DNA of 64,000 nt from Tetramitus jugosus. Lineage: Eukaryota > Heterolobosea > Eutetramitea > Acrasida > Vahlkampfiidae. Below the pieces are notes generated by a model. The model made no database searches and was not told where the DNA came from. It worked only from the letters and a program-made list of their open reading frames with translations. Below are positions 2 to 36,300 of the stretch, piece after piece. Numbering within the stretch: position 1 is the first letter of the stretch; each line of letters opens with the position of its first letter. The stretch lies in assembly GCA_937625935.1 (NCBI GenBank), contig OW569370.1:186001-250000 (forward strand), read 5' to 3'. A program made the translations under genes and the position numbers.

Positions 2-2089
2 TATCTGTTGAACAATGACAGTTCACATACCATTGACATTGCCAGAGAATCATTCAAGGTGACGGATGCCAAACTTCGCAAATTTATGAAGCAGGTGAGA
101 GATTCATCGTCTCAAAGCTACCCCGAATCAAGTCTTGTTGGAACCAAGTTTCTTCAAATCAACGATTATCGTGAAGGAATTCTTAATTTTACAATATCAG
201 GTACTCTTGGTTTTAATTTCTATTCCAATATCATTGGTGATATCATTAATTTGATGAATTCAATGATGGAGGATCAAGAAGACCATGGAATAGATGGCAA
301 TGAAGATTTAGTCAATATGTTGAGGATGGTCGAGTTTCAGTACACGACCAAATCAATTGGATCCTTTGTGTTTTCTCAAAAACAATATCCACTGGAGTTG
401 TATCAAGCCATTTCATACCTTATAGCAAGTAGAGATACCCTTCTCGCGTCGGTGGTGCGCTCAATGGATGATAACGAAGAGGAGGTGTATCAACAGATGG
501 TCAATGGAACTCTTCCTGCCATCACTGCAATGGAGTCCTACTTGTCCTCCGATCGATGGAACTTTACAACCACTGGACCACTACCAAGCGTAACAAAATA
601 TTCTGCTATCATGTGGGATTCAGTTACAATGGATCACATCAGAGCGCTCCGATCAGTTCAATCCTTTTTGGAGAAGAAACTCCTGAAGAAGTCCAATGAT
701 ATTATTTCGAAAGGCACCGGAATAATCATATCTATCATTTGTGTTGTCCTCTTCTTCTTCTGCCTTGTGCTGATTTGCTCATCATTGACATCATGCAGCA
801 TCATTGGACCATGGAGAAGATTGAACAAAATGCAAGAAAATGCAATCAGCAAGTTTGTTCCACAACAATTCTTGAGACTCATGAATGTCAAGAGGATCAA
901 TGACATAGAGTTGGGAAAGTTTGTGGAGAGACAGTTAACCATCATGAACATTTCCATTGCTCAGTTCGCCAAGTTGACATCTGGAATGAAACCAGAACAA
1001 ATCTTGCAATTCACCAACTCATACTTTGGTTACATTGGTCCAATCATTCGCAAATATGGATTTGTTCAGAATTACAATGGTGATGGACTTGTTGCATTGT
1101 ATAAGAGCCAAAGGAAAGCATTGTCTGCGAGTGTTGAACTTCAATTGGCAACAAGTGCTTACAACTTGAATGTTGTTTCAAAGAGTGATTTCCCATTGGT
1201 TGAGGTTGGAATATCAGTGCAGACTGGCGCAGTTCTTGTTGCAATTGTTGGTGAGAATGAAAGAATGGAGTGCACCATACTCAGTTCACACCACAAAACA
1301 TCAGCCAAGCTCGATTATTTAATTCAAAAATTGAACTTGAGAATGCTGACCAATACACTAGGAACTGAAGTATCGATCAAAAAATCATTATCTAGTCAGA
1401 TTGCATACAGAATGCTAGGATCGATGGAGGTAGAAACATCTTCTGGTACCCAACTTACGACGGTATATGAGATTTTGAAATCATCAGACAATGCAAAGCT
1501 TCAATCCAGAGATGATCTCAGGAATGCAGTTACACTATTTCAAACTGGACGGTATGCTGAAGCGGAGCCAATCTTTGTTTCGATTGTTAGTGAACTTTCT
1601 GATGATACAGTGAGCAAGTTGTACTTGAGTCGATGTGAACGACTGGTCAACCAAGTGAAACTCATCAGTTTGAATTTAGGTGTTCAGGAGGTCTTGAAAG
1701 ATGATGAACTATTCCATGGATTTGAAGTGTTTTGCCAGCAAGAGTTCAGTGCAGAAAACATTGTTCTTTGGGGTGAGATTGAACAATACAAAGTGCAACC
1801 AGAAAACAAGAGAAGAACCATCGCAAAGAGATTGAGAAGAGAGTATCTGAGTTTGAGTGGACGGAAAACGATCAACATCAATGAGACGTTGAAGGAAGCT
1901 GTTGCGAATGAGATTTTGAAAGAATCTCATGAGAAAGCACCCGCAGCAGAGTTGTTCTCTGACATTCAACATGAACTGGAACTGTTGATGACAGACACAT
2001 GCAACAGATACAAAGCTTCTTCACTCTTCTTTGAGAGCCTTGCAAGATCAAAGTATGCCATCAGAGCACCTTATCTAGACCAATTGTAA
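2..2089 (+). CDS. NIT-sensor / TM / degenerate cyclase / RGS membrane protein, copy 1 (5' partial)
   Basis: The frame is open to the window edge. The apparent first residue is a TTG inside a stretch (LNNDSS) also found inside copy 3, so this is the C-terminal ~695 residues of an ~820-residue protein. Visible in order: NIT-like helical sensor (about 1-230), a TM helix (about 238-262) ending in the family motif SCSIIGPWRRLNKMQ, a class III cyclase-like domain (about 305-465), a linker with the FQ.GR..EAEPIF motif often seen after cyclase domains, and a C-terminal RGS domain (about 550-680). In the cyclase domain the first metal Asp is Ser (MNISIAQFAKLT), the second is kept (YNGDGLVALY), and the transition-state Asn is replaced in SSHHKTSAKLD. 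The RGS motif SAENIVLW is intact. Role inferred: a membrane sensor acting on heterotrimeric G proteins rather than making cAMP or cGMP. Copies 2 and 3 follow on the same strand. Confidence 0.85.
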   Translation, partial: YLLNNDSSHTIDIARESFKVTDAKLRKFMKQVRDSSSQSYPESSLVGTKFLQINDYREGILNFTISGTLGFNFYSNIIGDIINLMNSMMEDQEDHGIDGNEDLVNMLRMVEFQYTTKSIGSFVFSQKQYPLELYQAISYLIASRDTLLASVVRSMDDNEEEVYQQMVNGTLPAITAMESYLSSDRWNFTTTGPLPSVTKYSAIMWDSVTMDHIRALRSVQSFLEKKLLKKSNDIISKGTGIIISIICVVLFFFCLVLICSSLTSCSIIGPWRRLNKMQENAISKFVPQQFLRLMNVKRINDIELGKFVERQLTIMNISIAQFAKLTSGMKPEQILQFTNSYFGYIGPIIRKYGFVQNYNGDGLVALYKSQRKALSASVELQLATSAYNLNVVSKSDFPLVEVGISVQTGAVLVAIVGENERMECTILSSHHKTSAKLDYLIQKLNLRMLTNTLGTEVSIKKSLSSQIAYRMLGSMEVETSSGTQLTTVYEILKSSDNAKLQSRDDLRNAVTLFQTGRYAEAEPIFVSIVSELSDDTVSKLYLSRCERLVNQVKLISLNLGVQEVLKDDELFHGFEVFCQQEFSAENIVLWGEIEQYKVQPENKRRTIAKRLRREYLSLSGRKTININETLKEAVANEILKESHEKAPAAELFSDIQHELELLMTDTCNRYKASSLFFESLARSKYAIRAPYLDQL

Positions 2090-2436
2090 AAAACTGTACA
2101 TTATACCCATAGGACATTACCAACAGTCCATAAGAATTAAAACTCCTCTCGGCTCAACATTTTATGCGCAGCTACTCTAAGAATAGCAGGACTGTTCCGG
2201 CTCACATCCACAAAAGACAGTCGCACATTTTTCGTTGGAAGCAACACGTCCTTCGTTGCTACCTTGTCCTTTCGATATCGCGATATCACGGCTTTTGAGT
2301 GACAGATGAGATTCAGGACTTTAGAGCACGGCGGATTGGACACAGAAATTTTTATGATTACCTGCGAGTATCAACATGTTCAACAGCCAAGTACTCAACA
2401 ACTACTAGACAACAAGAACAAACCCAAGAAAACACC
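2090..2436. other. Intergenic, between copies 1 and 2
   Basis: 347 bp with no convincing gene. It holds the 3' end of copy 1 and the presumed promoter of copy 2. It contains a perfect 14-bp palindrome, GATATCGCGATATC, at 2274-2287. The copy 2 frame is open back to a GTG at 2299 but without resemblance to copy 3, so I treat that stretch as 5' leader. Confidence 0.6.
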
Positions 2437-4890
2437 ATGATGACAGAAGCTGTTCCAAGTGCCACAGCAACTCACAAAAAGGATCTGGAGCTGTGTGATA
2501 TAGATACACACGGTGCAGAGACTCTGTCGACAGTCAATCATCACAACTCCACAACATCAAGTGATCCATACTCGGATGAGCTGCTCACATTCACTGCCAA
2601 GGGTTTTCAAGGTCTCATTGAAAGAATTCCAATGCCTGTCAAGCTCTTGTCCATGGCGCTCGCTGCACTTGTTGGCATGGTATGTATAGGAGCCTTTTTG
2701 ATTGTGATTCAATCCATTGATATTCGCAAGGCCAATGATGAACGACAGTTCGTTCACATCTCGGTGGCAACGAGCGATACTGTACTATACCTGCAGAGGG
2801 AGAGAGAAACTATAGTTCAATTTCTGAGCGAATCTCAGTTGAATAGTTCGATTGCTATCGCAAAAGAATCATTCGAGACGACGGACCTCAAGCTTAAACT
2901 CTTTGGAGACAAAGTGAAGGGCTTGTCTGCGCAGAATGCTTTTGAAGCAACCCTCATTGAGCTGCAACAACTGAATTCCATACGTCAAGGAATGTTGAAT
3001 TTTACTGTCGAGGGAGAGACAGGTTTCAACTATTACTCCAAATTGATTGACAGCTTTGCGGTGGGGTTGAGTTCGATTACTCGAAGTAGCTCTAGCATTG
3101 AAGGTAGTGACAATTTGGTTAGTATGTTGAGAATAGGCGAGTATCAGTATGCTCTGAGAACGGGAGGAGAGTACCTCTTTGCTCAAAAACAACACTCCTT
3201 AACAGTGTACTATCAGTTGGTATATTACATATCCGCGAGAGATTCCTTATTAAGTTCAGTACTGTATTCCATGAGCCAGACAGAGATAGAATACTATTAT
3301 CAAGCTGTTAATTCCACTAGTCTACTGGCTCAAATGGAAAGCTACTTGACTTCAGATCAATGGAACTTCACTACTACGGGACCCCTTCCAAATGTTACAC
3401 AATTCTCGAAAGATTTGTGGAGTACAACAACGAAGAATCGTCTCCTGGCTTTTCAATCTGTTCAATCGTATCTGACTCAGGGATTGACGAAACAAGCAGA
3501 AGATACTGTTACTCAAGGAACCAGTATTATTGTTGGAATCATCGTAGTTATTCTGTTCTTCTTTTGCGTTGTACTGTGTTGTTCTTCCCTCACATCATGC
3601 AGCATCATTGGACCATGGAGAAGGTTGAACAAAATGCAAGAGATTGCAATCAGCAGATTTGTTCCACAACAATTCTTGAGACTCATGAATGTCAAAAGAA
3701 TCAATGAAATCGAACTGGGAAAGTATGAAGAACGGAAGTTGACCATCATGAACATATCGATGGGAAGATTTGCCAAGTTGACATCTGGAATGAAACCAGA
3801 ACAAATCTTGCAATTCACAAACTCATACTTTGGTTACATTGGTCCAATCATTCGCAAGTTTGGATTTGTTCAGAATTACAATGGTGATGGACTTGTTGCA
3901 TTGTACAAGAGTCAAAAGAAAGCATTGTCTGCAAGTGTTGAACTTCAATTGGCCACAAGTGCTTACAACTTGAATGTTGCTTCGAAGAATGACTTCCCAT
4001 TGGTTGATGTTGGCATTTCAGTTCAATCAGGAACAGTTCTTGTTGCAATTGTTGGTGAGAATGAAAGAATGGAATGCACAATTATCAGTTCTCACACAAG
4101 GATATCTGCGAAGTTGGACAGTTTGATTCATAAGTTGAATCTGAGGGTGTTGACAACTGCTTTAGAAACTGATACGCCAATTCAAAAATCAGTAACCAAC
4201 CAAGTTGGCTTTCGAGCTTTAGGATCGCTCGAAGTGGAAACAGCATCAGGTACACAACTCGTACAGGTGTTCGAGATTGTGAAATCGTCAGATAAAGTTA
4301 AGTTGCAATTGAATCATGACTTCAGCCAAGCAGTCGAATTGTTCCAATCAGGAAGATTTCCAGAAGCTGAACCAATCTTTGCTTCAATTGCAAGTGAGTT
4401 GATTGATGACACAGTGTGTAAGTTGTACTTGAAGAAGTGTGAACAACTGCTTCAACAAGTGAGAATGATGACATCAAACTTGGGAGTTCAAGATATCTTG
4501 AAAGATGATGAATTATTCCATGGATTTGAGGTGTTCTGTCAGCAAGAGTTCAGTGCAGAAAACATTATTCTTTGGGGTGAGATTGAACAATACAAAGTTC
4601 AACCCGAGGCAAAAAGAAGAACCATCGCAAAGAGATTGAGGAAAGAGTATCTAAGCTTGAGTGGTCGTAAGACAATCAACATCAATCAGACTCTGAAAAC
4701 GGCAGTGGCCAATCAGATATCAGATGACCACTCTGGAGCACCTGCGGCGGATCTGTTTTCAGATATTCAAAATGAACTGGAACTGTTGATGACAGACACA
4801 TGCAACAGATACAAAGCTTCTTCACTCTTCTTTGAGAGCCTTGCAAGATCAAAGTATGCTATCAAAGCACCATATCTCGACCAATTGTAA
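2437..4890 (+). CDS. NIT-sensor / TM / degenerate cyclase / RGS membrane protein, copy 2
   Basis: An 817-residue protein. I chose the ATG at 2437 (a second ATG follows at once) because its MTE start and the following DLELCD.DTHGAETLS block match copy 3. Layout: cytosolic N-terminus (1-65), TM1 (about 66-90, PVKLLSMALAALVGMVCIGA), NIT-like region (about 95-350; its first helix reads VLYLQRERETIVQFL, like the LQ.ERG motif of NIT sensors), TM2 (about 365-390), degenerate class III cyclase domain (about 430-595) and RGS domain (about 680-805). The first metal Asp is Ser (MNISMGRFAKLT), the second is kept (YNGDG), and the Asn/Arg pair is Arg/Lys (SSHTRISAKLD). The RGS carries SAENIILW and DTCNRY. 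Known for the family: NIT domains sense nitrate/nitrite in bacteria, and RGS domains speed GTP hydrolysis by G-alpha. The ligand here is unproven. Confidence 0.88.
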   Translation: MMTEAVPSATATHKKDLELCDIDTHGAETLSTVNHHNSTTSSDPYSDELLTFTAKGFQGLIERIPMPVKLLSMALAALVGMVCIGAFLIVIQSIDIRKANDERQFVHISVATSDTVLYLQRERETIVQFLSESQLNSSIAIAKESFETTDLKLKLFGDKVKGLSAQNAFEATLIELQQLNSIRQGMLNFTVEGETGFNYYSKLIDSFAVGLSSITRSSSSIEGSDNLVSMLRIGEYQYALRTGGEYLFAQKQHSLTVYYQLVYYISARDSLLSSVLYSMSQTEIEYYYQAVNSTSLLAQMESYLTSDQWNFTTTGPLPNVTQFSKDLWSTTTKNRLLAFQSVQSYLTQGLTKQAEDTVTQGTSIIVGIIVVILFFFCVVLCCSSLTSCSIIGPWRRLNKMQEIAISRFVPQQFLRLMNVKRINEIELGKYEERKLTIMNISMGRFAKLTSGMKPEQILQFTNSYFGYIGPIIRKFGFVQNYNGDGLVALYKSQKKALSASVELQLATSAYNLNVASKNDFPLVDVGISVQSGTVLVAIVGENERMECTIISSHTRISAKLDSLIHKLNLRVLTTALETDTPIQKSVTNQVGFRALGSLEVETASGTQLVQVFEIVKSSDKVKLQLNHDFSQAVELFQSGRFPEAEPIFASIASELIDDTVCKLYLKKCEQLLQQVRMMTSNLGVQDILKDDELFHGFEVFCQQEFSAENIILWGEIEQYKVQPEAKRRTIAKRLRKEYLSLSGRKTININQTLKTAVANQISDDHSGAPAADLFSDIQNELELLMTDTCNRYKASSLFFESLARSKYAIKAPYLDQL

Positions 4891-5549
4891 ATAAACTGGA
4901 CTGAATCACTGGAAATATGTCGAAGTACGTTCTTACGAGTTGGAAGCATATTGAAATACGTGTTCACCACCTTAACTAATAAATTTTGACCCAAAAAATT
5001 AGAAGTATTCGGATCAACATCGTGATTTGACCCTTCGTATGGTTCAATTCCTTCTTGTTGTTTCGCGTGTTAAAAATGCGGCACATCACAAAGCTCTCGA
5101 GAGAAACCTGCTTCTCTAAGTTGAATCAACTCTTAATGGTCCTTCGTGGCAGTTGTTGTTTGTGCGGTTAAATACTCTCGAGATGAAAGGATCTCCTCCT
5201 TTTGCGGTTCAGATGCTTTAGACATTGGCAGCGAGTCCTTTGCTTGTGCGATCCTTCGGCAAAGGATGAATGAAAGTACTTGCACTGGAGGTTTCGATGT
5301 TGACCCGTATTGGATGTTGTAGCGCAACTCCGCGTGTTTTTCGGGGCACCCTACGGGTCTTTTTAGCCGGGGATTCGCAATACCGATGTAATACAGCGAC
5401 AGATGACAGATGGGTCAACTTCGGAAGGTGCAACAATAGACGAGAAATGTGCGCAAGGAAGCTCTATTGTGTTAATACAAGCCAACACCACATCCATTCA
5501 CAGCACCACTCAAAACAAAACAAAACAAACTAACAAACAACTACCCCAA
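4891..5549. other. Intergenic, between copies 2 and 3, with GC-rich hairpin patch
   Basis: 659 bp with no clear gene. Visible items are the palindrome CTCTCGAGAG at 5094-5103, and a locally GC-rich patch at about 5300-5375 with the perfect hairpin ACCC-TAC-GGGT (5348-5358) followed by a T run. An ATG at 5403 is in frame with copy 3 and would add 49 residues. The added residues are Thr/Asn/Gln-rich and unlike copy 2, so I treat them as leader. Confidence 0.55.
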
Positions 5550-8012
5550 ATGACAGAGCCAACCTCGAACAACAAGGAAAGAGATCTGGAGCTTTGTGAC
5601 ATGGACACTCACGGTGCAGAGACACTGTCCACCTTCAACCACCACAACTCCACAACATCAAGTGATCCATACTCGGATGAGTTGCTCACATTCACTGCCA
5701 AGGGATTTCAAGGTCTCATTGAAAGAATTCCAATGCCTGTCAAGCTCTTGTTCATGGCTCTCACTGCACTCCTAGGCATGGCGTGCATTGCTGCATTTCT
5801 AATCACGATACAATCGATTGAGATCAGGAAGGCCAATCAAGGACGGAAGTTTGTCAAAGTTACGGTTTTGACCGGAGAGACAGTGCTGTACTTGCAACAA
5901 GAGAGAGGAGATGTTATCAATTACTTGAGTGAGTATCAATTAAACAATGACAGTTCAAACAGTATCGAAATTGCAAAGAGATCGTTCATCACCACGAATA
6001 GCAAGATTAGAAGTTTTAGGAGAGAACTGCGAAGTTTATCCACGCAGAGCGTGTTTCGCGATGGTTTGACCCAACTAGAACAATTGGACAATGTGCGTGA
6101 AGGTATATTAAATTTCAATATATCGGCAAATGATGGATTCGATTACTACTACAATGTCATTGTTAGTTTTACTGATGCTTTGAATTCAATGACTGGAGGT
6201 CTCAATACGCTGAATGGCGAAGGGAGCGCAAACTTGATCAATCTTCTGAGGATTATCGAGTATCAGTCCGCGTTGAAAACGGCAGGAGAGTATCTCTTTG
6301 CCCAAAAACAACACTCGTTAGAGTTCTACTCCATAATGACGTCTCAGTTATCTGGTAGGGACTCTCTGTTGGCATCAGTGTTACAATCAATGAATCAAAA
6401 AGAAAGAGACTTCTATCATAAAGCAATCAATGGTACTATAGCTGAACTTTCTACAATGGAGGCCTATTTGACATCATATCAATGGAATTTCACTACGACA
6501 GGGCCACCACCGAACATTACAGAGTATTCGGAGTGGAAGTGGCGCTCTGTGACGAACGATCATATGCAAGCGTTTGAATCAGTTGGATTGTATCTCGCGA
6601 GTGAATTAACGAGAGAAACAAACGCAGTCATATCTGAAGGCACTGGAATAATCGTAGGAATCATTGTGGTTGTCATTTTCTTCTTTATTGTAGTTCTTTT
6701 GTGCTCCTCTCTTACATCATGCAGCATCATTGGACCATGGAGAAGATTGAACAAAATGCAAGAGATTGCAATCAGCAGATTTGTTCCACAACAATTCTTG
6801 AGACTCATGAATGTGAAGAGAATCAATGAAATCGAACTGGGAAAGTATGAAGAACGGAAGTTGACCATCATGAACATATCGATGGGAAGATTTGCCAAGT
6901 TGACATCTGGAATGAAACCAGAACAAATCTTGCAATTCACAAACTCATACTTTGGTTACATTGGTCCAATCATTCGCAAGTTTGGATTTGTTCAGAATTA
7001 CAATGGTGATGGACTTGTTGCATTGTATAAGAGCCAAAGGAAAGCATTGTCTGCAAGTGTTGAACTTCAATTGGCCACAAGTGCTTACAACTTGAATGTT
7101 GCTTCGAAGAATGACTTTCCATTGGTTGATGTTGGCATTTCAGTTCAATCAGGAACAGTTCTTGTTGCAATTGTTGGTGAGAATGAAAGAATGGAATGTA
7201 CCATCATCAGCTCTCACACGAAGGTATCTGCAAAGTTGGACAGTTTGATTCACAAACTAAATCTAAGAATGCTTACTACTGCCTTGGACTCAGATGGAAC
7301 TCTACAGAAGTCAGTGACTAGCCAAGTTGGCTTTCGGTCGTTAGGTTTGATCGAGGTTGAAACATCCTCTGGACCAGAGCTAATCCGAGTCTTCGAAATC
7401 TTGAAGGAGTCTGACAAATTTAAGCTGCATTTTAATCATGACTTCAGTCAAGCAGTCGAATTGTTCCAATCAGGAAGATTTCCAGAAGCTGAACCAATCT
7501 TTGCTTCAATTGCAAGTGAGTTGAACGACGACACAGTCTGCAAATTGTACTTGAAGAAGTGTGAGCAACTTCTTCAACAAGTGAGAATGATGACATCAAA
7601 CTTGGGAGTTCAAGATATCTTGAAAGATGATGAATTATTCCATGGATTTGAGGTGTTCTGTCAGCAAGAGTTCAGTGCAGAGAACATTATTCTTTGGGGT
7701 GAGATTGAACAATACAAAGTTCAACCAGAAGACAAGAGAAGAACCATTGCGAAAAGACTTAGGAATGAGTATTTAAGTTTGAGTGGACGGAAAACCATTA
7801 ATATCAACCAGACATTGAAAGAGACCGTGTCAAAGGAGATTTTGGAATCGAGTAGCGATGCACCAGAACCTGACCTGTTTTCTGACATCCAACGAGAGCT
7901 CGAATTTTTGATGGCAGACACTTGTAACAGATACAAATCATCCTCATTGTTCTATGAGAGCCTTGCCAAGTCACAGTACTCCATCAAAGCCCCCTATCTT
8001 GACCAGTTGTAA
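5550..8012 (+). CDS. NIT-sensor / TM / degenerate cyclase / RGS membrane protein, copy 3
   Basis: An 820-residue protein, third in the tandem array. Same order as copy 2: cytosolic N-terminus, TM1 (about 62-88), NIT-like sensor (about 95-350, first helix VLYLQQERGDVINYL), TM2 (about 365-390, IIVGIIVVVIFFFIVVLLC), cyclase-like domain (about 435-595), linker and RGS (about 680-805). Cyclase lesions match copy 2: Ser for the first metal Asp, Asp kept in YNGDG, and Lys/Lys for the Asn/Arg pair in SSHTKVSAKLD. RGS residues aligned by eye to RGS4 Glu87/Asn88, Asn128, Leu159, Asp163 and Arg167 are all present. From about 6720 to 7250 and 7430 to 7720 the DNA is almost identical to copy 2, whereas the sensor part (5900-6600) is only loosely similar. 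An ATG at 5403 is an alternative start. Confidence 0.88.
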   Translation: MTEPTSNNKERDLELCDMDTHGAETLSTFNHHNSTTSSDPYSDELLTFTAKGFQGLIERIPMPVKLLFMALTALLGMACIAAFLITIQSIEIRKANQGRKFVKVTVLTGETVLYLQQERGDVINYLSEYQLNNDSSNSIEIAKRSFITTNSKIRSFRRELRSLSTQSVFRDGLTQLEQLDNVREGILNFNISANDGFDYYYNVIVSFTDALNSMTGGLNTLNGEGSANLINLLRIIEYQSALKTAGEYLFAQKQHSLEFYSIMTSQLSGRDSLLASVLQSMNQKERDFYHKAINGTIAELSTMEAYLTSYQWNFTTTGPPPNITEYSEWKWRSVTNDHMQAFESVGLYLASELTRETNAVISEGTGIIVGIIVVVIFFFIVVLLCSSLTSCSIIGPWRRLNKMQEIAISRFVPQQFLRLMNVKRINEIELGKYEERKLTIMNISMGRFAKLTSGMKPEQILQFTNSYFGYIGPIIRKFGFVQNYNGDGLVALYKSQRKALSASVELQLATSAYNLNVASKNDFPLVDVGISVQSGTVLVAIVGENERMECTIISSHTKVSAKLDSLIHKLNLRMLTTALDSDGTLQKSVTSQVGFRSLGLIEVETSSGPELIRVFEILKESDKFKLHFNHDFSQAVELFQSGRFPEAEPIFASIASELNDDTVCKLYLKKCEQLLQQVRMMTSNLGVQDILKDDELFHGFEVFCQQEFSAENIILWGEIEQYKVQPEDKRRTIAKRLRNEYLSLSGRKTININQTLKETVSKEILESSSDAPEPDLFSDIQRELEFLMADTCNRYKSSSLFYESLAKSQYSIKAPYLDQL

Positions 8013-8632
8013 ATATTCTGCCTCCGAAGCAACTCAATCTTTTTTCTTGACATGTTTCTTGTGTTTCACTTGGCGAGTGAATGCCAGTCAGATGAGAAAT
8101 GCCTTCATCTGCGATTTGACTGCAAAACAGCGTATCAAGTGTATGAATGCCAGTTAAATGAGAAAAGGCTCGATGCAATAGGCCATATCGAACTGCAAAT
8201 TTCAATACTTTTATCACTGGGGACAGACAAGTTAGTTTTGTTTGTTTATCCTACTGTCTGTGAATGATTATGTGCTGGGGTCCTTGTGACTCGTTCTTTC
8301 TTTCTAATTCGATAATTTCGAGAACTTCTACACGAAATGGCACTTCTAGAACGGAGCATCATATACCCAACAAATACAATAGCTCAACAACTGATGACAA
8401 ATCAACAGCCTATCAAACTTTTTCTCTTCAATGTACTTGTTGGTGTGATCGGTGTGTTTTGATTGTGGTCAACCACAGTGGCATCCATCATAGTGGTGAC
8501 GAGAGACACTGCACCGAGCCCGAAGAGTAAAACAAAATGTAGAATCGATTTATCATGGCAAAATTGGTCACATGTTACACTCTTGTAACAAAGTTCATCG
8601 TGCAATGTCCTCTCTATCACAATACAAGATCG
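8013..8632. other. Intergenic, copy 3 to LRR gene
   Basis: 620 bp between the 3' ends of two convergent genes. The only recognisable content is a decayed piece of the neighbouring LRR array at about 8075-8195, listed separately. The rest (8200-8632) shows no gene that I can support. Confidence 0.6.
8075..8195 (-). pseudogene. Decayed LRR fragment, relic of the adjacent array
   Basis: On the minus strand this stretch translates as about two repeats of the neighbouring LRR gene (AFSHLTGIHTLDTLFCSQI, then ADEGISHLTGIHS). The DNA closely matches the array at about 9315-9425, for example CTTCATCTG.GATTTGACTGCAAAAC. It lies about 440 bp past the stop codon of the intact gene and sits in a short frame with no LRR sequence on either side, so it reads as a remnant of a longer or duplicated LRR gene. 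Confidence 0.8.
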
Positions 8633-9907
8633 TCACTTCATCACTAGAGTTATTGAATTAGCTTTACAGTGTTCAACCACCTGCTGGATGAAACTGTTGT
8701 CTCGCTCATTATCAAACCAATAGAGGTTGTGAAGGTTCTTCCAATGAAAGAATGCCTGCTCCGTGATCGATTCTTGACTACAACTACTCAGATTGAGTGT
8801 GTGGATATCAGTCAAATGAGCAAAGAATTCATCTGTGATTTGATTGCAAAAAGTCAGATCTAGCGTGTGAATGCCAGTCAAATAAACAAACGCACTGTCT
8901 GTGATTTGATAGCAATAGGCCATATCGAGTGTATGAATACCAGTCAAATGAGAAATGGCTTCATCTGTTATTTGAGGGAGACATCTCATGCTGAGTGTAT
9001 GAATGCCTTTCAAGTGAGAAAAAGCCTGATTCGTGATTTGCTTGCATCTCCCCATGTTGAGTGTATGAATACCCTGCAAATGAGAAAACGAATTGTCTGT
9101 GATATTCTCGCAGTAACTAATGTCGAGTGTGTGAATACCAGCCAAATGATGGAATGCGTTGTCAGTGATAAGGCAACCACTCATGTTGAGCGTGTGAATA
9201 CCAGTCAAATGAACAAACGCACTGTCTGTGATTTGATTGCAAGAGGCCATATTGAGTGTATGAATACCAGTCAAATGAGAAATGGCTTCATCTGTTATTT
9301 GCGCGCAACCAGTCATGTCAAGTGTATGAATACCAGTCAGATGGGGTATAGCTTCATCTGTGATTTGACTGCAAAACTTCATATCAAGTGTATGAATGCC
9401 AATCAAATGAGAAAAGGCTTGATCTGTGATCTGTTCGCACTCAGTCATGGCCAGTGTATGAATGCCAATCAAATGAGGAATGGCTTCATCTGTGATTTGC
9501 TTGCAATAATCCATTCTGAGTGTATGAATGCCAGTCAAGTAAACAAAAGCATTGTTTGTGATTTGATAGCAATAGGCCATATCGAGTGTATGAATACCAG
9601 TCAAATGAGAAACGGCTTGATTTGTAATTTGCGTGCATCTTCCCATGTTGAGTGTATGAATACATTTCAAATGAGAAAACGCATTGTCTGTGATATTCTC
9701 GCAGTAACTAATGTCGAGTGTGTGAACACCAGACAAATGATGGAATGCGTTGTCAGTGATAAGGCAACCACTCATGTTGAGCGTGTGAATACCAGTCAAA
9801 TGAACAAACGCACTGTCTGTGATTTGACGACAATATATCATCACAAGTGTGTGAATCCCTTCCAAGAATTGGAAATGCTCATCTACCACATGTGAATTCT
9901 CATTCAA
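8633..9907 (-). CDS. Leucine-rich repeat protein (cysteine-containing LRR type), start uncertain
   Basis: About 424 residues made almost wholly of 22-residue LRR units, consensus GIHTLDM.YC.QITDEAF.HL, resembling the Cys-containing LRRs of AMN1/F-box-LRR proteins. No F-box, kinase, TM or signal peptide is seen. Likely role: protein binding; the partner is unknown. The first residue would be a TTG at 9907. The frame stays open further upstream to a TGA near 9998 and the added residues look coding, but there is no ATG in that frame. An ATG at 10035 in another frame (protein start MKWEIFMHKLTEP) runs towards it and would need a small intron or a frameshift. It is therefore either mis-started or 5'-broken. 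The window's REXO gene starts divergently only 27 bp beyond that ATG. Confidence 0.75.
   Translation of the reverse strand: MNENSHVVDEHFQFLEGIHTLVMIYCRQITDSAFVHLTGIHTLNMSGCLITDNAFHHLSGVHTLDISYCENITDNAFSHLKCIHTLNMGRCTQITNQAVSHLTGIHTLDMAYCYQITNNAFVYLTGIHTLRMDYCKQITDEAIPHLIGIHTLAMTECEQITDQAFSHLIGIHTLDMKFCSQITDEAIPHLTGIHTLDMTGCAQITDEAISHLTGIHTLNMASCNQITDSAFVHLTGIHTLNMSGCLITDNAFHHLAGIHTLDISYCENITDNSFSHLQGIHTLNMGRCKQITNQAFSHLKGIHTLSMRCLPQITDEAISHLTGIHTLDMAYCYQITDSAFVYLTGIHTLDLTFCNQITDEFFAHLTDIHTLNLSSCSQESITEQAFFHWKNLHNLYWFDNERDNSFIQQVVEHCKANSITLVMK
8660..9890. repeat. 66-bp tandem repeat array coding LRRs, with a 591-bp higher-order duplication
   Basis: The LRR coding repeats have a 66-bp period, with occasional 63-bp units that lack one codon. 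A block at about 9061-9235 recurs almost unchanged at about 9652-9826. The offset is exactly 591 bp (8 x 66 + 63), for example GATAAGGCAACCACTCATG at 9167 and at 9758. This shows expansion by unequal exchange or slippage in multi-repeat steps. Confidence 0.9.
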
Positions 9908-10061
9908 GCAATTGCTTATGACAGCGCGATTCGTGCACTGTTTGATGCATTCTTCCAGTTTTTCACTTGTGGAACTTGAAGGTTCAAAAAGAAAGCAGGT
10001 TCAGTGAGTTTATGCATAAAAATTTCCCATTTCATTCAACAAAAAGCACAACAACAACAAA

Positions 10062-13371: not shown

Positions 13372-16300
13372 TTAGAACAAGTAAACCCTCTTCTTCATCT
13401 CTTGTTGCTTCCAAACAGGATGAGTGTAGAATTCTTGCTTTGAGATATCGAAAACAGCACTAAAGTCCTGCTCTGACAAGTAGGATTCAAGCTTCAATGG
13501 ATCGACACCTTCTGGCAATGGTTCATTTAGAAGTACAGAATATGGATAGGTGGCACCTCCACAATAAATCTTCATCACTTCGGCAAGAGTAGCCAAAGTG
13601 TTTTCCTTCTTTGCTGTGGAGGAGGACATGATCGAACTTCTTCTTCTGGCTGTGCCAGAAGTAGTGTTCCAACCCTGGATACCAAAGAAGAATTCATTGG
13701 TCTCTTTGCCGTCATATGCAACAAATGCCTTTGAAAATCCTTCACTCGCCAACGAATTGAGCATATCTTCCGCAGTGAACAGAGCACCCTTCTTCACAAA
13801 GTCATCAGAGCTTCTGCCCAACCAGACAAATATGCATCCCTGGTCACTGTATGGAACCAAGATGTAGCAGTTGTTATGATTTAACAATTCATCTTGACAT
13901 ACATGTCGCACCTCATCACACGAGAAAATACCAGTTGATTGTGTGCAGAGGAACAATCGAGAATAGTGTCTAAGTGATGGCTTTGAAGATGGCTTAATGT
14001 ATCGAACATTTTTGGTGGCAAAGGTGTTGATGAATGCCTCGGGCTCATCTCCCTCCTTCACTTCGGATACACTCTTTGACATGACTGCCGATATCTTCTT
14101 TGCATGCTCATATTCAACATTGATCGAACGAGAACCTCTCCAGATGAAAGCATTTGTGTTACCTGGTTGCAGCAACACATAGCAATGAAGTGGATTCAGT
14201 CTAGAGAAGTCACTTTCAATCTCAACTGCCTTGGCATTGTTTGCTGTTGTTCCTCTCACATCATACAATCTGCTACCGTTGGATTGAGCAGTGTATGAGC
14301 CTTTGTGAACCACGAACTTGCCCTTGAACAACATAATAAACTCGACTGGTTCCTTGTTTTGTTCAATCCGGATCTGAGCGGCACTTCCGTCCATATTGTC
14401 ATCAATACCGACGGACAACACAGCTGACGCACCTTTGCTCTGATTTGATGTCTCTCTTCCTTGCCAGAAGAATAGAATGTGTTGAACAGTAGGTGCACCC
14501 TTTTGAGTCCATGTGAACAGAACGATGAATGTGTCTTGAGCAAAGAAGTGGCCATAGAGTTGCTCAGGATATTCCTCCTTACTAAACTTGTTCACTCTCC
14601 AGATCTTGATCTTCTGAGATTTGAACACTGTGTTCTCAGAGAATGGAATATCATCCTCCTTCAGCTCAACAATGCTTGTCCTCAAAATACCCTTGACATC
14701 AACATCTTGCTGCTCCTTCTTCGTAGCAATATTACCACGTAGTTCAACAATCTGTGTAGCAATAGGAAGCATACCAGGATAGCCAGTAAACTTCTCTTTC
14801 CACAGAGATGTTTCTGCACCTTCGGCAATCTGAGTAATCTTGATCCATGACTTTCTATCAGGTTGTTGTAACAGTTTTTCTGCTACAACCATGGCTAGGT
14901 TTCTCTGTGCTGGCACTGCGTTCTTTCCAATCCACACCATCACTTCATCCTTCGTATCTAGAACGTACACGTACTTGGTGTTCAAAATATCCTTGTTTGG
15001 TCTTCCACTGGCTGGAACTCCTACTGTTGTAATGGCCTTGGCTAGATCCTTGATATTGGACACACGATACAATGTAGGCTTGCTGCTGATTGATGGCGCA
15101 GGTGCCTGATCACCAGGGACCTTAGATTCGTTCTCAATACCTCCAAATAGCTTCCAGAATTGAGTGTTAGCCTTCTTCATCTCGTCATTCATGTCCGACT
15201 CACTATCAATGACCTTGAGTTCAGCTGCTCCACCTCTTTCCTTGAACTTAATGGTCGATGATAGCTCCAATCCCTTGGCTTTTTGCAACTTGCTGGCATT
15301 CTTTCCGTTCCATTGATAAACAACTGTTCCACAGTCAACAACATACACATTTCGATGATTCAATGATGAGAAACTGAATTCGACCTGTGAAACATCGACT
15401 TGCTTGTTTCCTTGGATAGTATACATGGCTTTATCTTTTCCTTCCTTCAATCGCGCAAAATCAGTGACAGCGACATCCTTGCTTGGCTTCTCCTTAATGT
15501 CAGTAATGCCCAATGAGGCAGCAACTGGTTTCTTATGGGATCTCGAAGCATCTGTAAATCCGAGTCTAATATCTTCAGATTGTGAAGAATTCATCTCAGA
15601 CAATAAGTTATCCGTATCATCAGATGTATCGTAGAACTCCTTGAGAATTTGCAATGAATCGATCCAACTTCTCTTCACTTGAATGGTAGGACAGAGGAAA
15701 ATGTTGGTCTCTCCCTTGATGGCCTTGATGACAAAGTAGAATTTTGCATCGTCTCTCTTCATGTGGAACGAGATGGCCATTTCTGTTGTCATCTCCTCGA
15801 TAGCGAAAATGGTCTGAATAGGAATGATTTGGTCAATCAATTCCTTTTCAACAGGTACACCAGAGTTCAATCGATCCAATCCAGCTCTCGAATTAAATAC
15901 GAAGAGACTAGCCGTGTTGTCATCAAAGAAAATCCAACGTTTCTTCACCGTACCGTCACTGCCTCTCTTGAGCAGTTGACCACACACTTGACTGTCCAAA
16001 TCATCAAGCTCTCCAGACTCACCAAGTTGATCCTCCTCATCATCCATCAACTTTTTAATAAACTCAATTTCAGTCAACAAGGTTTGATACCACAATTCAC
16101 ATGTTTGATCATCCTCTGCCTTCAAAATAAAGTTTCTACCAGGTGTAAAGATTTGAATACACTTGTGACTGCTCTTCTTTGAAATCTTTGTCGAAACACC
16201 CTTCTCAACAGACAATGCCTTATCCAAATGAATGTAGCCCAGTGCAGATTTGCTCTGCTTTGCCTTGTAAGACAGAGTGTGCTCCTCTGGTGTATACTCA

Positions 16301-17472
16301 AAGTAACGCTTTCTCCATCCACCCGAAGGTCCCAACTTCTTCAATTTGCCACACAAATTGAAACTACTGGTCGTGGAGTTCTCTGCTCTGGCAGCCTTCT
16401 TCTCATTGGCTGCATGTTGCGAATAAGGACTCATGGCCAATCGAATATTGGCCATCCATTCCTCGCACAGAGTAGCATTCTCAGCCATTAGAATATAGTC
16501 TCTCGAAACGGTTTGAATCACAAAACTGGTGCGACTCTTTGGCGCACTCACAATATCTCTCACCTCCTTGAGACAAATCTTGCCCAGTGATCTCGATGCC
16601 TCCTTTTTATCAAAATAGAAAATGTTGCCATCTTCAATGGTGAACCATCGACGCTTCTTACCAATACCATATGGATTCTTCTTGTCCAGGTATCCACTGT
16701 ACTTTGTCGCTTGAGTAAACTCCTGAGTCATTTGTTGCACCGTTGTCGTAGCTTCACTAAACTTGCTCTTTCGGTCAGAATCGAGTCGAATGCTATATTT
16801 GTGAGAAGATGACGTGCCTGTCATACTGTTCCACATGTCTTCATCACGACTGCTCTGTCTCTGTAGAGACGTAGATGTCGATGGTGGCGATAATGTAGCC
16901 TGTGATTGTTTTTCAGACTCCTCATCACGATGACTGGCAGATGACGATGATGAAGATGACTCTGAAGAAGGTGACTGCTGTGGTTGTTGTTGAGTAGACG
17001 ATGTTGGTGGTGGTGTGTTGGCAGAAATGACAGATTTTCGGTGAACAGCAGTCGATTTACCTCTGGATCGAATCACTCGAACATTATTACCACTATTGCT
17101 GTTGTTTCCAATGATACTTCCACTTCGGATCACTGCAGTACTCGCTGTTGTTGCGGTTGTGACCGTAGTTGTCTTACTCGGAGAATCTGTAGCTGCCAAA
17201 TCCGTTGTCGGAGTGGGAGAAGAAGAAAATTGAGGGTTCCAATCTTCGTCATCGCTACTTCCATCGTCCTCGTCGTCACTGTCATTGACCGCAACTGAAC
17301 TGTTTGTGATAATTACAGGCACATCGTCATCATCATCGTCGTCGTCATTGTCATCTTCACCACCATTGGCAGAAGGTACAACTGTCATTTGAATCTCATC
17401 CTCAACCTCCCAATCTTCATCCGCTTCGTCGTCACTGGACGAATGGTTCTCATAATGATTGTTGTTGACCAT
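13372..17472 (-). CDS. Villidin-like actin regulator: acidic N-terminus, 3 PH, about 5 gelsolin repeats, villin headpiece
   Basis: A 1366-residue single-exon gene. Residues 1-240 are acidic and Ser/Thr/Gln-rich. PH1 is about 254-347 (SGYLDKKNPYGIGKKRRWFT), PH2 about 372-470 (CGKLKKLGPSGGWRKRYFEY) and PH3 about 494-607 (CGQLLKRGSDGTVKKRWIFF). Gelsolin-like repeats follow from about 690, for example HRNVYVVDCGTVVYQWNGKN, TKYVYVLDTKDEVMVWIGKN, HCYVLLQPGNTNAFIWRG and CYILVPYSDQGCIFVWLGRS. A villin headpiece closes the protein (LPEGVDPLKLESYLSEQDF, then WKQQEMKKRVYLF). This is the order of Dictyostelium villidin, but without its N-terminal WD repeats. Expected role: linking phosphoinositide-rich membranes to F-actin during amoeboid movement. 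Severing ability cannot be judged from the sequence. Confidence 0.92.
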   Translation of the reverse strand: MVNNNHYENHSSSDDEADEDWEVEDEIQMTVVPSANGGEDDNDDDDDDDDVPVIITNSSVAVNDSDDEDDGSSDDEDWNPQFSSSPTPTTDLAATDSPSKTTTVTTATTASTAVIRSGSIIGNNSNSGNNVRVIRSRGKSTAVHRKSVISANTPPPTSSTQQQPQQSPSSESSSSSSSASHRDEESEKQSQATLSPPSTSTSLQRQSSRDEDMWNSMTGTSSSHKYSIRLDSDRKSKFSEATTTVQQMTQEFTQATKYSGYLDKKNPYGIGKKRRWFTIEDGNIFYFDKKEASRSLGKICLKEVRDIVSAPKSRTSFVIQTVSRDYILMAENATLCEEWMANIRLAMSPYSQHAANEKKAARAENSTTSSFNLCGKLKKLGPSGGWRKRYFEYTPEEHTLSYKAKQSKSALGYIHLDKALSVEKGVSTKISKKSSHKCIQIFTPGRNFILKAEDDQTCELWYQTLLTEIEFIKKLMDDEEDQLGESGELDDLDSQVCGQLLKRGSDGTVKKRWIFFDDNTASLFVFNSRAGLDRLNSGVPVEKELIDQIIPIQTIFAIEEMTTEMAISFHMKRDDAKFYFVIKAIKGETNIFLCPTIQVKRSWIDSLQILKEFYDTSDDTDNLLSEMNSSQSEDIRLGFTDASRSHKKPVAASLGITDIKEKPSKDVAVTDFARLKEGKDKAMYTIQGNKQVDVSQVEFSFSSLNHRNVYVVDCGTVVYQWNGKNASKLQKAKGLELSSTIKFKERGGAAELKVIDSESDMNDEMKKANTQFWKLFGGIENESKVPGDQAPAPSISSKPTLYRVSNIKDLAKAITTVGVPASGRPNKDILNTKYVYVLDTKDEVMVWIGKNAVPAQRNLAMVVAEKLLQQPDRKSWIKITQIAEGAETSLWKEKFTGYPGMLPIATQIVELRGNIATKKEQQDVDVKGILRTSIVELKEDDIPFSENTVFKSQKIKIWRVNKFSKEEYPEQLYGHFFAQDTFIVLFTWTQKGAPTVQHILFFWQGRETSNQSKGASAVLSVGIDDNMDGSAAQIRIEQNKEPVEFIMLFKGKFVVHKGSYTAQSNGSRLYDVRGTTANNAKAVEIESDFSRLNPLHCYVLLQPGNTNAFIWRGSRSINVEYEHAKKISAVMSKSVSEVKEGDEPEAFINTFATKNVRYIKPSSKPSLRHYSRLFLCTQSTGIFSCDEVRHVCQDELLNHNNCYILVPYSDQGCIFVWLGRSSDDFVKKGALFTAEDMLNSLASEGFSKAFVAYDGKETNEFFFGIQGWNTTSGTARRRSSIMSSSTAKKENTLATLAEVMKIYCGGATYPYSVLLNEPLPEGVDPLKLESYLSEQDFSAVFDISKQEFYTHPVWKQQEMKKRVYLF

Positions 17473-20167: not shown

Positions 20168-20855
<688 letters not shown>

Positions 20856-33342: not shown

Positions 33343-36300
33343 ATGTGGAGACTGACAAAACGTTTTCAACAACAACCACAACATGATAACAACAACAACA
33401 ACAATGATAATGAACAAGAATCAGAAGCAGAATCATATTCAGAGGATATCATCTCTCCTCTGACATCCACATCCACTGGTGCATCACATCATCATCATCA
33501 AAAACCAAGTATCATACCAGATGGTATCAACGAAGAAGAGGATGACGAGGAAAATTTCAATAATAATGAACAACGAAAGAATCATGATCAAGCTTCTGAG
33601 AATTCATTTATTGATTTGGACGATTTTGTTTTGGAGAATTTTGGTGTTGATTTGAAGGAGTATGATGATCATTTGATCATGGATCAACATGAACAAGAAG
33701 TATTGATGAATTCAAAGGAACAAATTTTTGTGTGTGAATTGACAAAGTTGTGGCATGATTTGTATCGTGCCATTTCGAAACAAGTATGTAGAGTGGAAAT
33801 GACACACGGTGTTTTTGTGTGTTGACCAAGATTTTTTTTTTCATGTTGCTTTTTTTTTGTTGAGAGATCACATATTCACACGAAATTTATTGATATTGTT
33901 AGGAAAAGCAATATTGTACGACAAAGTTTGTAGTTTGCTTGAATACTGCATTTGTGAATGGAATGGATATCAAAACACTGGTATCATTGAATGCGTTTGT
34001 ATCTTTATAGCTTTATCAATATTTGTTGTGATTCTCATTTTCATGTTGGTATTGACACATGTTGTGTGTTGTTTGTGTCACATTTTAAATGATTCATTGA
34101 TTCGTGTGAACCACAGTCACTTGAACGTGGGCAAAATGGTGAAAAAATTATCGTTCGAGTACATTGAAGAGTTTTGCGATGTGTTTGATATTGCCAACAG
34201 TCATCAATTGAGACATGAAAAACTGCGATTCAATTGTCGAACAAGAATCGACGGTCCAAGAGCAAAGGAATTTTTCTTTTTGGATGCCAGAACGAGCAAA
34301 GAGGCATCAACGACAACAGAAACGACTGCAGCATCATCGTTATCGATAGAACCGACGATTGATCCATGTAACAGTAGAGCAACGCTCATCTTGAAAGCTC
34401 TGTGTCTTTTAACAACGAGTTTGGATCCTAAAATACCAATTGTTTCCAATTTAGCGAGCTCAGTTATATTAACGATGCGATTCTTTGCGAAATGGGTTGG
34501 AATCGAACGAGAACAAGAGAGTGCAGATGATTCAGGCAATGATAATATAACGACAAATGATTCCCAAGAACGTACACGGATTGGTGACTATTCCATATTT
34601 AGTGGCGTTTGCGAACAGTTGGCCAATTATTTTGAAGTGGACCAGAATGAAGCGTACTTCAAAACGAATTATCGGAATGATGATGCCGTGGATTGTCATA
34701 CACTTAAACCCAAGGACAAAAATCCTTGTATTATTGCGGCATTGCTCTTAAAAAATATATGCCGTTCTCCTCTTGTTTTTACCGAGGTTTTCAATGAAAC
34801 AAATCAATGGAAACAAATTATAGCTTTATTTATTTCAATCAAGGAACAAGAGAACTTTGATTGGCGACTATATATTCAATTTGCTGATATCATGTTGGAA
34901 GCAGGTGCGATCATTTTTGAACAATCCTCAAACGTTATTGGCCAATTGCATGAAATTTCAATGGTACGAGTGACTAGTTTTATTTTGGGTCTCGTGAATC
35001 ATTCGTTGTCTCATTGTGAAACTTTGGACATTATAGATTCAGATACTCGGTTGAAGAGACTACACATGTGTCTCATACGGAGGTTGTCTCTCATGTATCT
35101 TACTGAATTATGTATATTTGGATTGTACAAATCATTGCATGTGATACCTGGACTGTTCATGGAGTTTGAACAGCAAGATGGGTACATTATCTTACAGAGA
35201 TTATTCGATAGTATCACATCTATTAATGTAACTTCGAGTTATGGGGAGGCAAACAACGCGATTCTCCAGTTCCAACAACAGAAAATGTTGGTTGTACTTC
35301 GTATCTTGGTTTGTCTCGTAATCGATTTCGTGAAGAATGTACAACAACGGCGATTTGTGACAGATTATTCGTTGGCGATTGGCTTATCTGCGCCATCGGT
35401 TCCATTGACGAACGCGAATCCCTTTTTAGAGGTGTCTCGAGATCCTCCAATTAAATGGAAGCACAACAATAAGGTATTGGTGATGCTACTAGCGCTCTTC
35501 AATCATATTGCAATGGAAGATAAATATGATTTGGAGGATAGATCTATTGAGTTTAGAGAGCGATTTTGTTGTAAACGAGAGCTCTTGGTGCAAATTGTTG
35601 AGCTACTACGGTTCTTCCCGTTGGAGTATGTGCGAGATCTCAACGATTCCGCGCCTTTTAAGTACCTGTGTGACAATTTCACATCAGTCAACTATCACAT
35701 GCAAATCTCAATCCTGGCAGCATTCAAGAAGTATATGACCTTGTTTTGTAGGTATGTTGTTGCCAATGGAGAAAACACCAAAGGAAGACAGGAGCGAAAG
35801 AAGTTGGACAATATTTTTTCTTCATTAAAGTGGGGAAACAAGAAGGCTGCCAGTAAGAAGAAACTCGAAGATGACTTACTGGTTCAAGCTCTGTGTCGTG
35901 ATTTTCACGAGTATTGTCGTATATTCTCATTCCATCAGAAGAGTCCGTTGGCAATATCACGGGTGTGTTCTCATGCTATTGACTTGCTGTCTACTGTTAA
36001 TAGAACTAGCTGTCTTTCTCGGGATGTTGTCCAGTACATGTTCCGGTTATCAGGTCTTCCACATATATTACTTGAGAGCCTCAATATTGACAGCGAGATT
36101 AGAAACAGGCAACTATCTGCTGAAATGTTGAACTTGCTTTACTCTTATTTGTACCAGAATGAGGAGAATCATAGAGATTTTATTGAAGCCGGTGGTTTGT
36201 TCAAATTTGCAACAGATACCGGTATTGTTCCCATCAAGCCGTTGGAGATTCTCTATTCTTTGCTATATGACGCACAATTGATTGAAATGACATTGACCAT

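Follow-up and report, generated by a model that had tools for sequence, protein, structure and literature searches.

Introduction

The locus described here raises the question of whether a membrane protein with two transmembrane (TM) helices and a sensor between them could act on a G protein through GTP hydrolysis. It lies in the amoeba Tetramitus jugosus, on contig OW569370.1 (here C27), within a window of 64,000 nucleotides corresponding to positions 186001-250000 of that contig; the genome searched comprises 26.3 Mb in 56 contigs. Three tandem genes in the window share one layout, TM1 - NIT - TM2 - pseudocyclase - RGS, and we read them, with a probability of roughly 0.6, as copies of a putative "receptor-GAP" (GAP, GTPase-activating protein) whose RGS domain would be under ligand control. 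The sequence basis of this reading is a NIT domain between two membrane helices, a class III cyclase domain devoid of catalytic residues and, after a helical linker, an RGS domain, and its basis in predicted structure is confined to the gene 2 sensor. Textbook G-protein signalling mostly begins with GTP loading by a seven-helix receptor.

Gene organization and membrane helices

The products of genes 1, 2 and 3 are 820, 817 and 820 amino acids long; in the genome sequence the ATG of gene 1 lies 374 bases upstream of the window start. The features of the three open frames are as follows.

2..2089, + strand: gene 1, truncated at its 5' end by the window start, TM1 - NIT - TM2 - pseudocyclase - RGS (open frame, Pfam, hydropathy, genome sequence)
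41..682, + strand: gene 1 NIT domain, part inside the window, second Arg replaced by Lys (PF08376)
932..1315, + strand: gene 1 class III cyclase domain, degenerate (PF00211 at 25.3 bits; substituted catalytic residues)
1685..2029, + strand: gene 1 RGS domain (PF00615, 53.8 bits; contact residues)
2437..4890, + strand: gene 2, 817 amino acids (open frame, Pfam, hydropathy; near-copy P0001 from a metagenome)
2626..2727, + strand: gene 2 TM1 (hydropathy; inside the first long helix of the predicted model)
2782..3486, + strand: gene 2 NIT domain, both nitrate-type arginines kept (Pfam, alignment, AlphaFold2 model against NasR 4akk)
3502..3618, + strand: gene 2 TM2 (hydropathy)
3733..4239, + strand: gene 2 pseudocyclase domain (PF00211, 20.4 bits, under the cut-off; residue comparison)
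4489..4830, + strand: gene 2 RGS domain (PF00615, 56.1 bits; contact residues)
5550..8012, + strand: gene 3, 820 amino acids (open frame, Pfam, phmmer, hydropathy)
5727..5825, + strand: gene 3 TM1 (hydropathy)
5883..6587, + strand: gene 3 NIT domain, QxER kept, second Arg replaced by Lys (Pfam, alignment)
6618..6740, + strand: gene 3 TM2 (hydropathy)
6855..7283, + strand: gene 3 pseudocyclase domain (PF00211, 19.7 bits, under the cut-off; CyaC 2w01, E 1e-11; residue comparison)
7611..7955, + strand: gene 3 RGS domain (PF00615, 57.3 bits; RGS4 1agr_E, E 5.3e-8; contact residues)

Two strong TM-like stretches flank the NIT domain in each of the three proteins, TM1 of gene 1 lying outside the window, and a third, weaker hydrophobic stretch is seen by hydropathy at about residues 520-543, within the cyclase region. 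Judged by hydropathy, none of the three carries seven TM helices ahead of its RGS domain. A preliminary description of this DNA had proposed three adjacent same-strand genes at 2..8012 with one shared layout and two TM helices around a NIT domain; the open frames and Pfam bear out the first point, the hydropathy profiles agree with the second, and its interpretation of the trio is supported overall, the tuning of a G protein by an outside ligand being the hypothetical part. An NCBIfam scan gave no match over cut-off and a phage search returned nothing. Bestrophin-like, SAM_SMF, TPR_2, GGDEF_GdpP and other Pfam families matched far below their cut-offs and were rejected.

The NIT sensor and its ligand

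PF08376 scored 67.0, 49.7 and 63.8 bits in genes 1, 2 and 3 (cut-off 24.9), and 76.4 bits in the whole of gene 1. Pfam E-values across the trio range from 8e-13 to 4e-18 for NIT and from 3e-14 to 3e-15 for RGS, so that chance is excluded for both domains. The genome search returned eight NIT matches, all above the Pfam cut-off: genes 1-3, C27d, C36a, C36b, C45 and C42, the last four labels also naming contigs by number. The AlphaFold2 model of the gene 2 sensor, set against NasR (4akk), has the NasR-like all-helical fold of two bundles. When PDB sequences were searched with a profile built on the NIT part, NasR ranked first, but at an E-value of 0.083, too weak to stand alone.

NasR and other nitrate sensors are described as holding nitrate by two arginines that belong to motifs of the GxxR type, with Gln for one Gly in NasR (PMC8199190), and R176 on helix 5 is predicted to be one such arginine (PMC7496416). 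The amoeba sensors were aligned with 13 bacterial NIT proteins gathered around P0004, the one match from a protein search with the NIT alignment, a sample and not the whole family; a related-locus search with P0004 gave a single locus matching only residues 438-666 of P0004, outside NIT, and was left unused. The first motif, QxER, is invariant in all eight amoeba sensors and in 12 of the 12 bacterial proteins that reach it (P0014 does not), as are the core residues Arg183 and Tyr200 (gene 3 numbering) in the eight amoeba domains. The second binding Arg is present in 13/13 bacterial proteins versus 2/8 amoeba sensors, namely gene 2 and C42, the placement of C42 hinging on a local alignment gap. 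Lys stands at this position in genes 1, 3 and C36b, while C36a and C45 have Asn and C27d has Gln. None of the eight has the Gly of GxxR. Replacement of the Arg, even by Lys, is reported to have made histidine-kinase sensors of the NarX/NarQ type insensitive to ligand (PMC8199190), and nitrate is therefore a poor guess for genes 1 and 3, for which nitrate or nitrite appears poorly supported as ligand. For gene 2, nitrate would be a fair guess from the residues at the site.

The cyclase-like domain

PF00211 scored 25.3, 20.4 and 19.7 bits in genes 1, 2 and 3 against a cut-off of 21.9; gene 1 alone passes and genes 2 and 3 fall just short, the cyclase identity of gene 3 resting on a phmmer match to CyaC (2w01, E 1e-11). 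The genome holds 52 cyclase matches. In comparison with cyclases of the same genome, and with the residue roles that we take to apply to class III cyclases, the first Asp, the transition-state Asn and the Arg are replaced together in 7/7 proteins that carry both NIT and RGS. The second metal Asp is kept in genes 1-3 and is Glu in the other four, and the substrate Lys is kept in C27d. None of the seven has the catalytic set (Asp pair, Asn and Arg) of a class III cyclase, or, by sequence, the catalytic cyclase domain of a NIT-guanylate cyclase receptor. All four catalytic residues are kept in C42, where the substrate Lys position is Ser, and in four dCache-like cyclases (C40, C30, C50 and C43), whose dCache matches are at or below the Pfam cut-off. 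The proportion of nonsynonymous differences (pN) is lower than that of synonymous differences (pS) in every segment and gene pair, which argues that the pseudocyclase is under constraint and is not debris.

The RGS domain and Galpha subunits

PF00615 scored 53.8, 56.1 and 57.3 bits in genes 1, 2 and 3 (cut-off 23.9) and lies above the cut-off in all seven NIT-RGS proteins; the gene 3 domain matches RGS4 (1agr_E, E 5.3e-8). Among the positions that we take to form the Galpha interface of RGS4, most are retained: S85, E87, N88, N128, L159 and D163 in 7/7 proteins, and R167 in the 6/6 that are readable. The genome contains 130 RGS matches. A Galpha is encoded on C23, its match to the solved Galpha7 chain (6ne6_A) being one among many Galpha chains. 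At 20451-20711 of the window, a Galpha-profile match below cut-off (E 4.6e-9) is probably a small GTPase.

The domains named in the preliminary description held up on inspection, and none of the refuting outcomes listed there turned up, published characterisation having been sought in open-access literature. Its NIT-like extracytosolic sensor is found by Pfam in genes 1-3, and structure prediction of this part, run for gene 2, gave the expected NIT bundles with a NasR-like fold. Its C-terminal RGS domain is matched by Pfam, by RGS4 and by the contact residues, and its "pseudocyclase" is apt in that the catalytic residues are replaced. With the Pfam profiles, NIT and RGS were over cut-off in all three proteins; the cyclase was so in gene 1 and below cut-off in genes 2 and 3.

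Related genes in the genome

The two pseudocyclases were searched against the whole genome and the results set against the RGS matches. Cyclase-like sequence stands directly before RGS in nine cases, which are the seven NIT genes together with C7 and C46. Of the 130 RGS matches in all, the cyclase profile was applied to 40 other RGS neighbourhoods and found nothing cyclase-like (0/40), the remaining neighbourhoods being covered by sequence searches alone.

C7 (82513-85297; L027:2013-4797) encodes a dCache-like sensor, a TM helix, a weak HAMP, a degenerate cyclase and an RGS domain, and is, as far as its sequence tells, the same pseudocyclase-RGS output on another sensor. Its dCache_1 match is 43.2 bits in frame and 45.5 bits in the genome search (cut-off 45), MCP-like_PDC_1 is over cut-off, and the cyclase region crosses at least one frame break, taken as an intron. 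The RGS domain keeps E87, N88, N128 and L159 but not S85, D163 and R167, which makes GAP activity less sure. At C46 (6786-7769; L026:1286-2269, - strand), near the contig end, a pseudocyclase-like piece without a Pfam match is followed by RGS; the locus is fragmentary, its frames broken or split by introns.

C42 (358390-360615; L019:390-2615) encodes NIT - TM - cyclase with the Asp pair, Asn and Arg, and has one short presumed intron. The genome RGS scan gave no match near it, and the next gene lies on the opposite strand; C42 is likely the unconverted relative. In a cyclase tree of 15 rows it falls between the NIT pseudocyclases and a set of dCache and bacterial cyclases, grouping with those six at 90/86, the six without C42 being joined at 99/97. 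This tree flags long branches, that of C7 most, and does not unite the eight NIT cyclases.

A protein search (7971 candidates scored of 5.8 billion) found one further protein with NIT and RGS, the metagenomic P0001, a near-copy of gene 2 that is 98% identical over the sensor piece.

History of the tandem array

Identity within the trio is 46-49% in NIT, 80-90% in TM2 plus cyclase and 83-87% in RGS. Between genes 2 and 3, synonymous divergence (dS) is 0.12 in the cyclase core, 0.31 in the helical linker and 1.23 over the whole RGS domain, and it is saturated in NIT and at the cyclase end. Silent sites are nearly identical between gene 3 at 6741-7244 and 7425-7607 and gene 2 at about 3619-4122 and 4303-4485, and differ in the surrounding and intervening stretches. 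Selection alone was rejected as the cause of the higher identity of the output half; because silent sites of genes 2 and 3 are also alike there, gene conversion is needed, and the pattern is read as patchy gene conversion that affected parts of the output half while the sensors diverged. The NIT segments themselves are constrained, with pN of 0.29-0.36 versus pS of 0.71-0.78.

Comparison with known systems

NIT-cyclase receptors are known in animals, among them placozoans and others (PMC7400543) and Platynereis, with NIT-GC1/2 (PMC10584369). Like the trio, these metazoan guanylate cyclases are described with NIT between two TM helices and a C-terminal cyclase-fold domain; unlike it, they have a catalytic ANPR-type cyclase, and the available text of the two papers mentions no RGS, the trio having a dead cyclase and a putative RGS output. 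Bacterial NIT proteins (NasR; the NIT-HAMP-MCP proteins P0004-P0016) share the NIT fold and QxER, the chemoreceptors also being TM-NIT-TM, and differ in their ANTAR or MCP outputs and in the second-motif Arg counted above. Pelagomonas has protist NIT proteins, one member with two TM helices, but the output, where given, is a protein kinase domain (PMC9481584).

The 7TM-RGS proteins (plant AtRGS1; 28 in Naegleria fowleri, PMC9283941) resemble the trio as membrane proteins whose C-terminal domain is RGS, from organisms whose Galpha self-activates, but have seven TM helices in place of two strong TM-like stretches around NIT with a pseudocyclase between these and RGS. For N. fowleri, the same paper lists, besides these, 79 further RGS proteins, one RGS-RhoGEF and 80 cyclases; the available text describes neither a NIT sensor nor a pseudocyclase-RGS chain. 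It also reports that RGS domains of the 7TM-RGS proteins are GAPs on several Galpha subunits. The abundance of RGS and cyclase matches in the present genome (130 and 52) resembles the N. fowleri set and suggests a Naegleria-like heterolobosean; in that species or a close one, genes like the trio may be counted with the 79 further RGS proteins. In the literature covered, mainly open-access papers apart from bioRxiv and most subscription journals, no protein was found in which RGS is combined with either NIT or a pseudocyclase, in line with the earlier statement that the chain was not known to have been characterised. A domain database may list this architecture without comment.

Proposed mechanism and alternatives

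In the proposed receptor-GAP, the NIT domain would face outward and bind a small molecule, binding would shift TM2, and a dimeric pseudocyclase would relay this movement, a role like the one attributed to the kinase-homology domain of receptor guanylyl cyclases. The relay would alter the acceleration by RGS of GTP hydrolysis on a membrane Galpha. Since the Galpha subunits of N. fowleri are reported to be self-activating (PMC9283941), hydrolysis would be the natural control step, as with plant AtRGS1, and with the off-step as control point no seven-TM exchange-factor receptor would be needed. In evolution, a NIT receptor cyclase may have gained an RGS domain, its cyclase decaying to a transmission module before the gene multiplied.

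Several observations weigh against this reading. Genes 1 and 3 carry Lys in place of the second nitrate-binding Arg. At the RGS4 interface, E126, D130 and R166 are not conserved, and Phe, Gln or Arg stands in place of Y84. One N. fowleri Galpha showed no response to the RGS domains that were tried (PMC9283941), so that GAP activity is not to be assumed for every RGS/Galpha pair. C36a (on C36, L021:607-3138), one of the seven NIT-RGS genes, carries a stop within the final portion of the RGS domain, which may reflect decay, an intron or a sequencing error. The full-length prediction of gene 3, from an alignment of four sequences, has a confidence score (pLDDT) of 34.8 and is unusable for domain packing. 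An RGS tree of 45 rows joins six NIT-RGS domains, C46 and C7 weakly (91/63) and places C27d elsewhere; the idea that the RGS domains located behind a cyclase all form one clean clade was rejected on this account, and one or several cyclase-to-RGS conversions are possible.

The proteins could instead be membrane-anchored RGS scaffolds, always on, in which NIT and the pseudocyclase serve only for dimerisation and placement. Loss of the second nitrate Arg, or its change to Lys, in 6/8 NIT domains would suit this, as would gene conversion that homogenises stretches of the output half but leaves the sensors to drift. Yet QxER, Arg183 and Tyr200 are invariant in 8/8, the NIT segments are still constrained at the pN and pS given above, and the genome retains several different sensor copies on one output type; we consider a scaffold without ligand control unlikely. 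True nitrate/nitrite or nitric oxide (NO) receptors feeding a G protein, at which the preliminary description hinted, seem more doubtful still: both arginines stand in gene 2, and annelid NIT-GC1 is reported to be required for photoreceptor NO signalling (PMC10584369), but gene 2 is alone in the trio in having the Arg pair, the GxxR Gly is missing from 8/8, and NO synthase and HNOB gave no match in the genome, where an intron-split gene could escape the search.

It is improbable, too, that the trio encodes regulatory subunits of active cyclases, the pseudocyclase pairing with, for example, the RGS-less C42 and RGS bringing in Galpha, with a cyclic nucleotide as output. Class III cyclases work in dimeric form, there are known partner domains that lack catalysis, and NIT and dCache-like cyclases with catalytic residues occur in the same genome; against this, the first Asp, Asn and Arg are lost together in 7/7, leaving the second Asp in genes 1-3 and Lys in C27d, and C42 lies on another contig. 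Beyond the receptor-GAP reading of the trio, we suggest tentatively a class of ligand-gated receptor-GAPs derived from receptor cyclases in one lineage, with the dead enzyme as relay, RGS as output and at least two sensor families (NIT and dCache); with self-activating Galpha, these would be two-TM primary receptors acting on the off-step, independent of a seven-TM receptor or exchange factor.

Other features of the window

A leucine-rich repeat gene with 66-base units (8636-10000, - strand) adjoins gene 3, and an orphan repeat piece lies between the two at 8078-8174. The gene at 13372-17472 (- strand) encodes a protein that combines three PH domains with gelsolin repeats and a villin headpiece, and an open frame of 3582 amino acids spans 34043-44791.

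Implications

The sensor domains are separate modules, and ligands could be tested on them singly. The RGS-less relative with catalytic residues in the same genome offers a comparison for the switch of output. If the receptor-GAP reading is true, the trio would be a clear case of an enzyme-linked receptor that switched output by domain gain and enzyme decay, and the concept of a G-protein receptor would extend to a receptor with two helices that acts, by way of a dead cyclase, on GTP hydrolysis.
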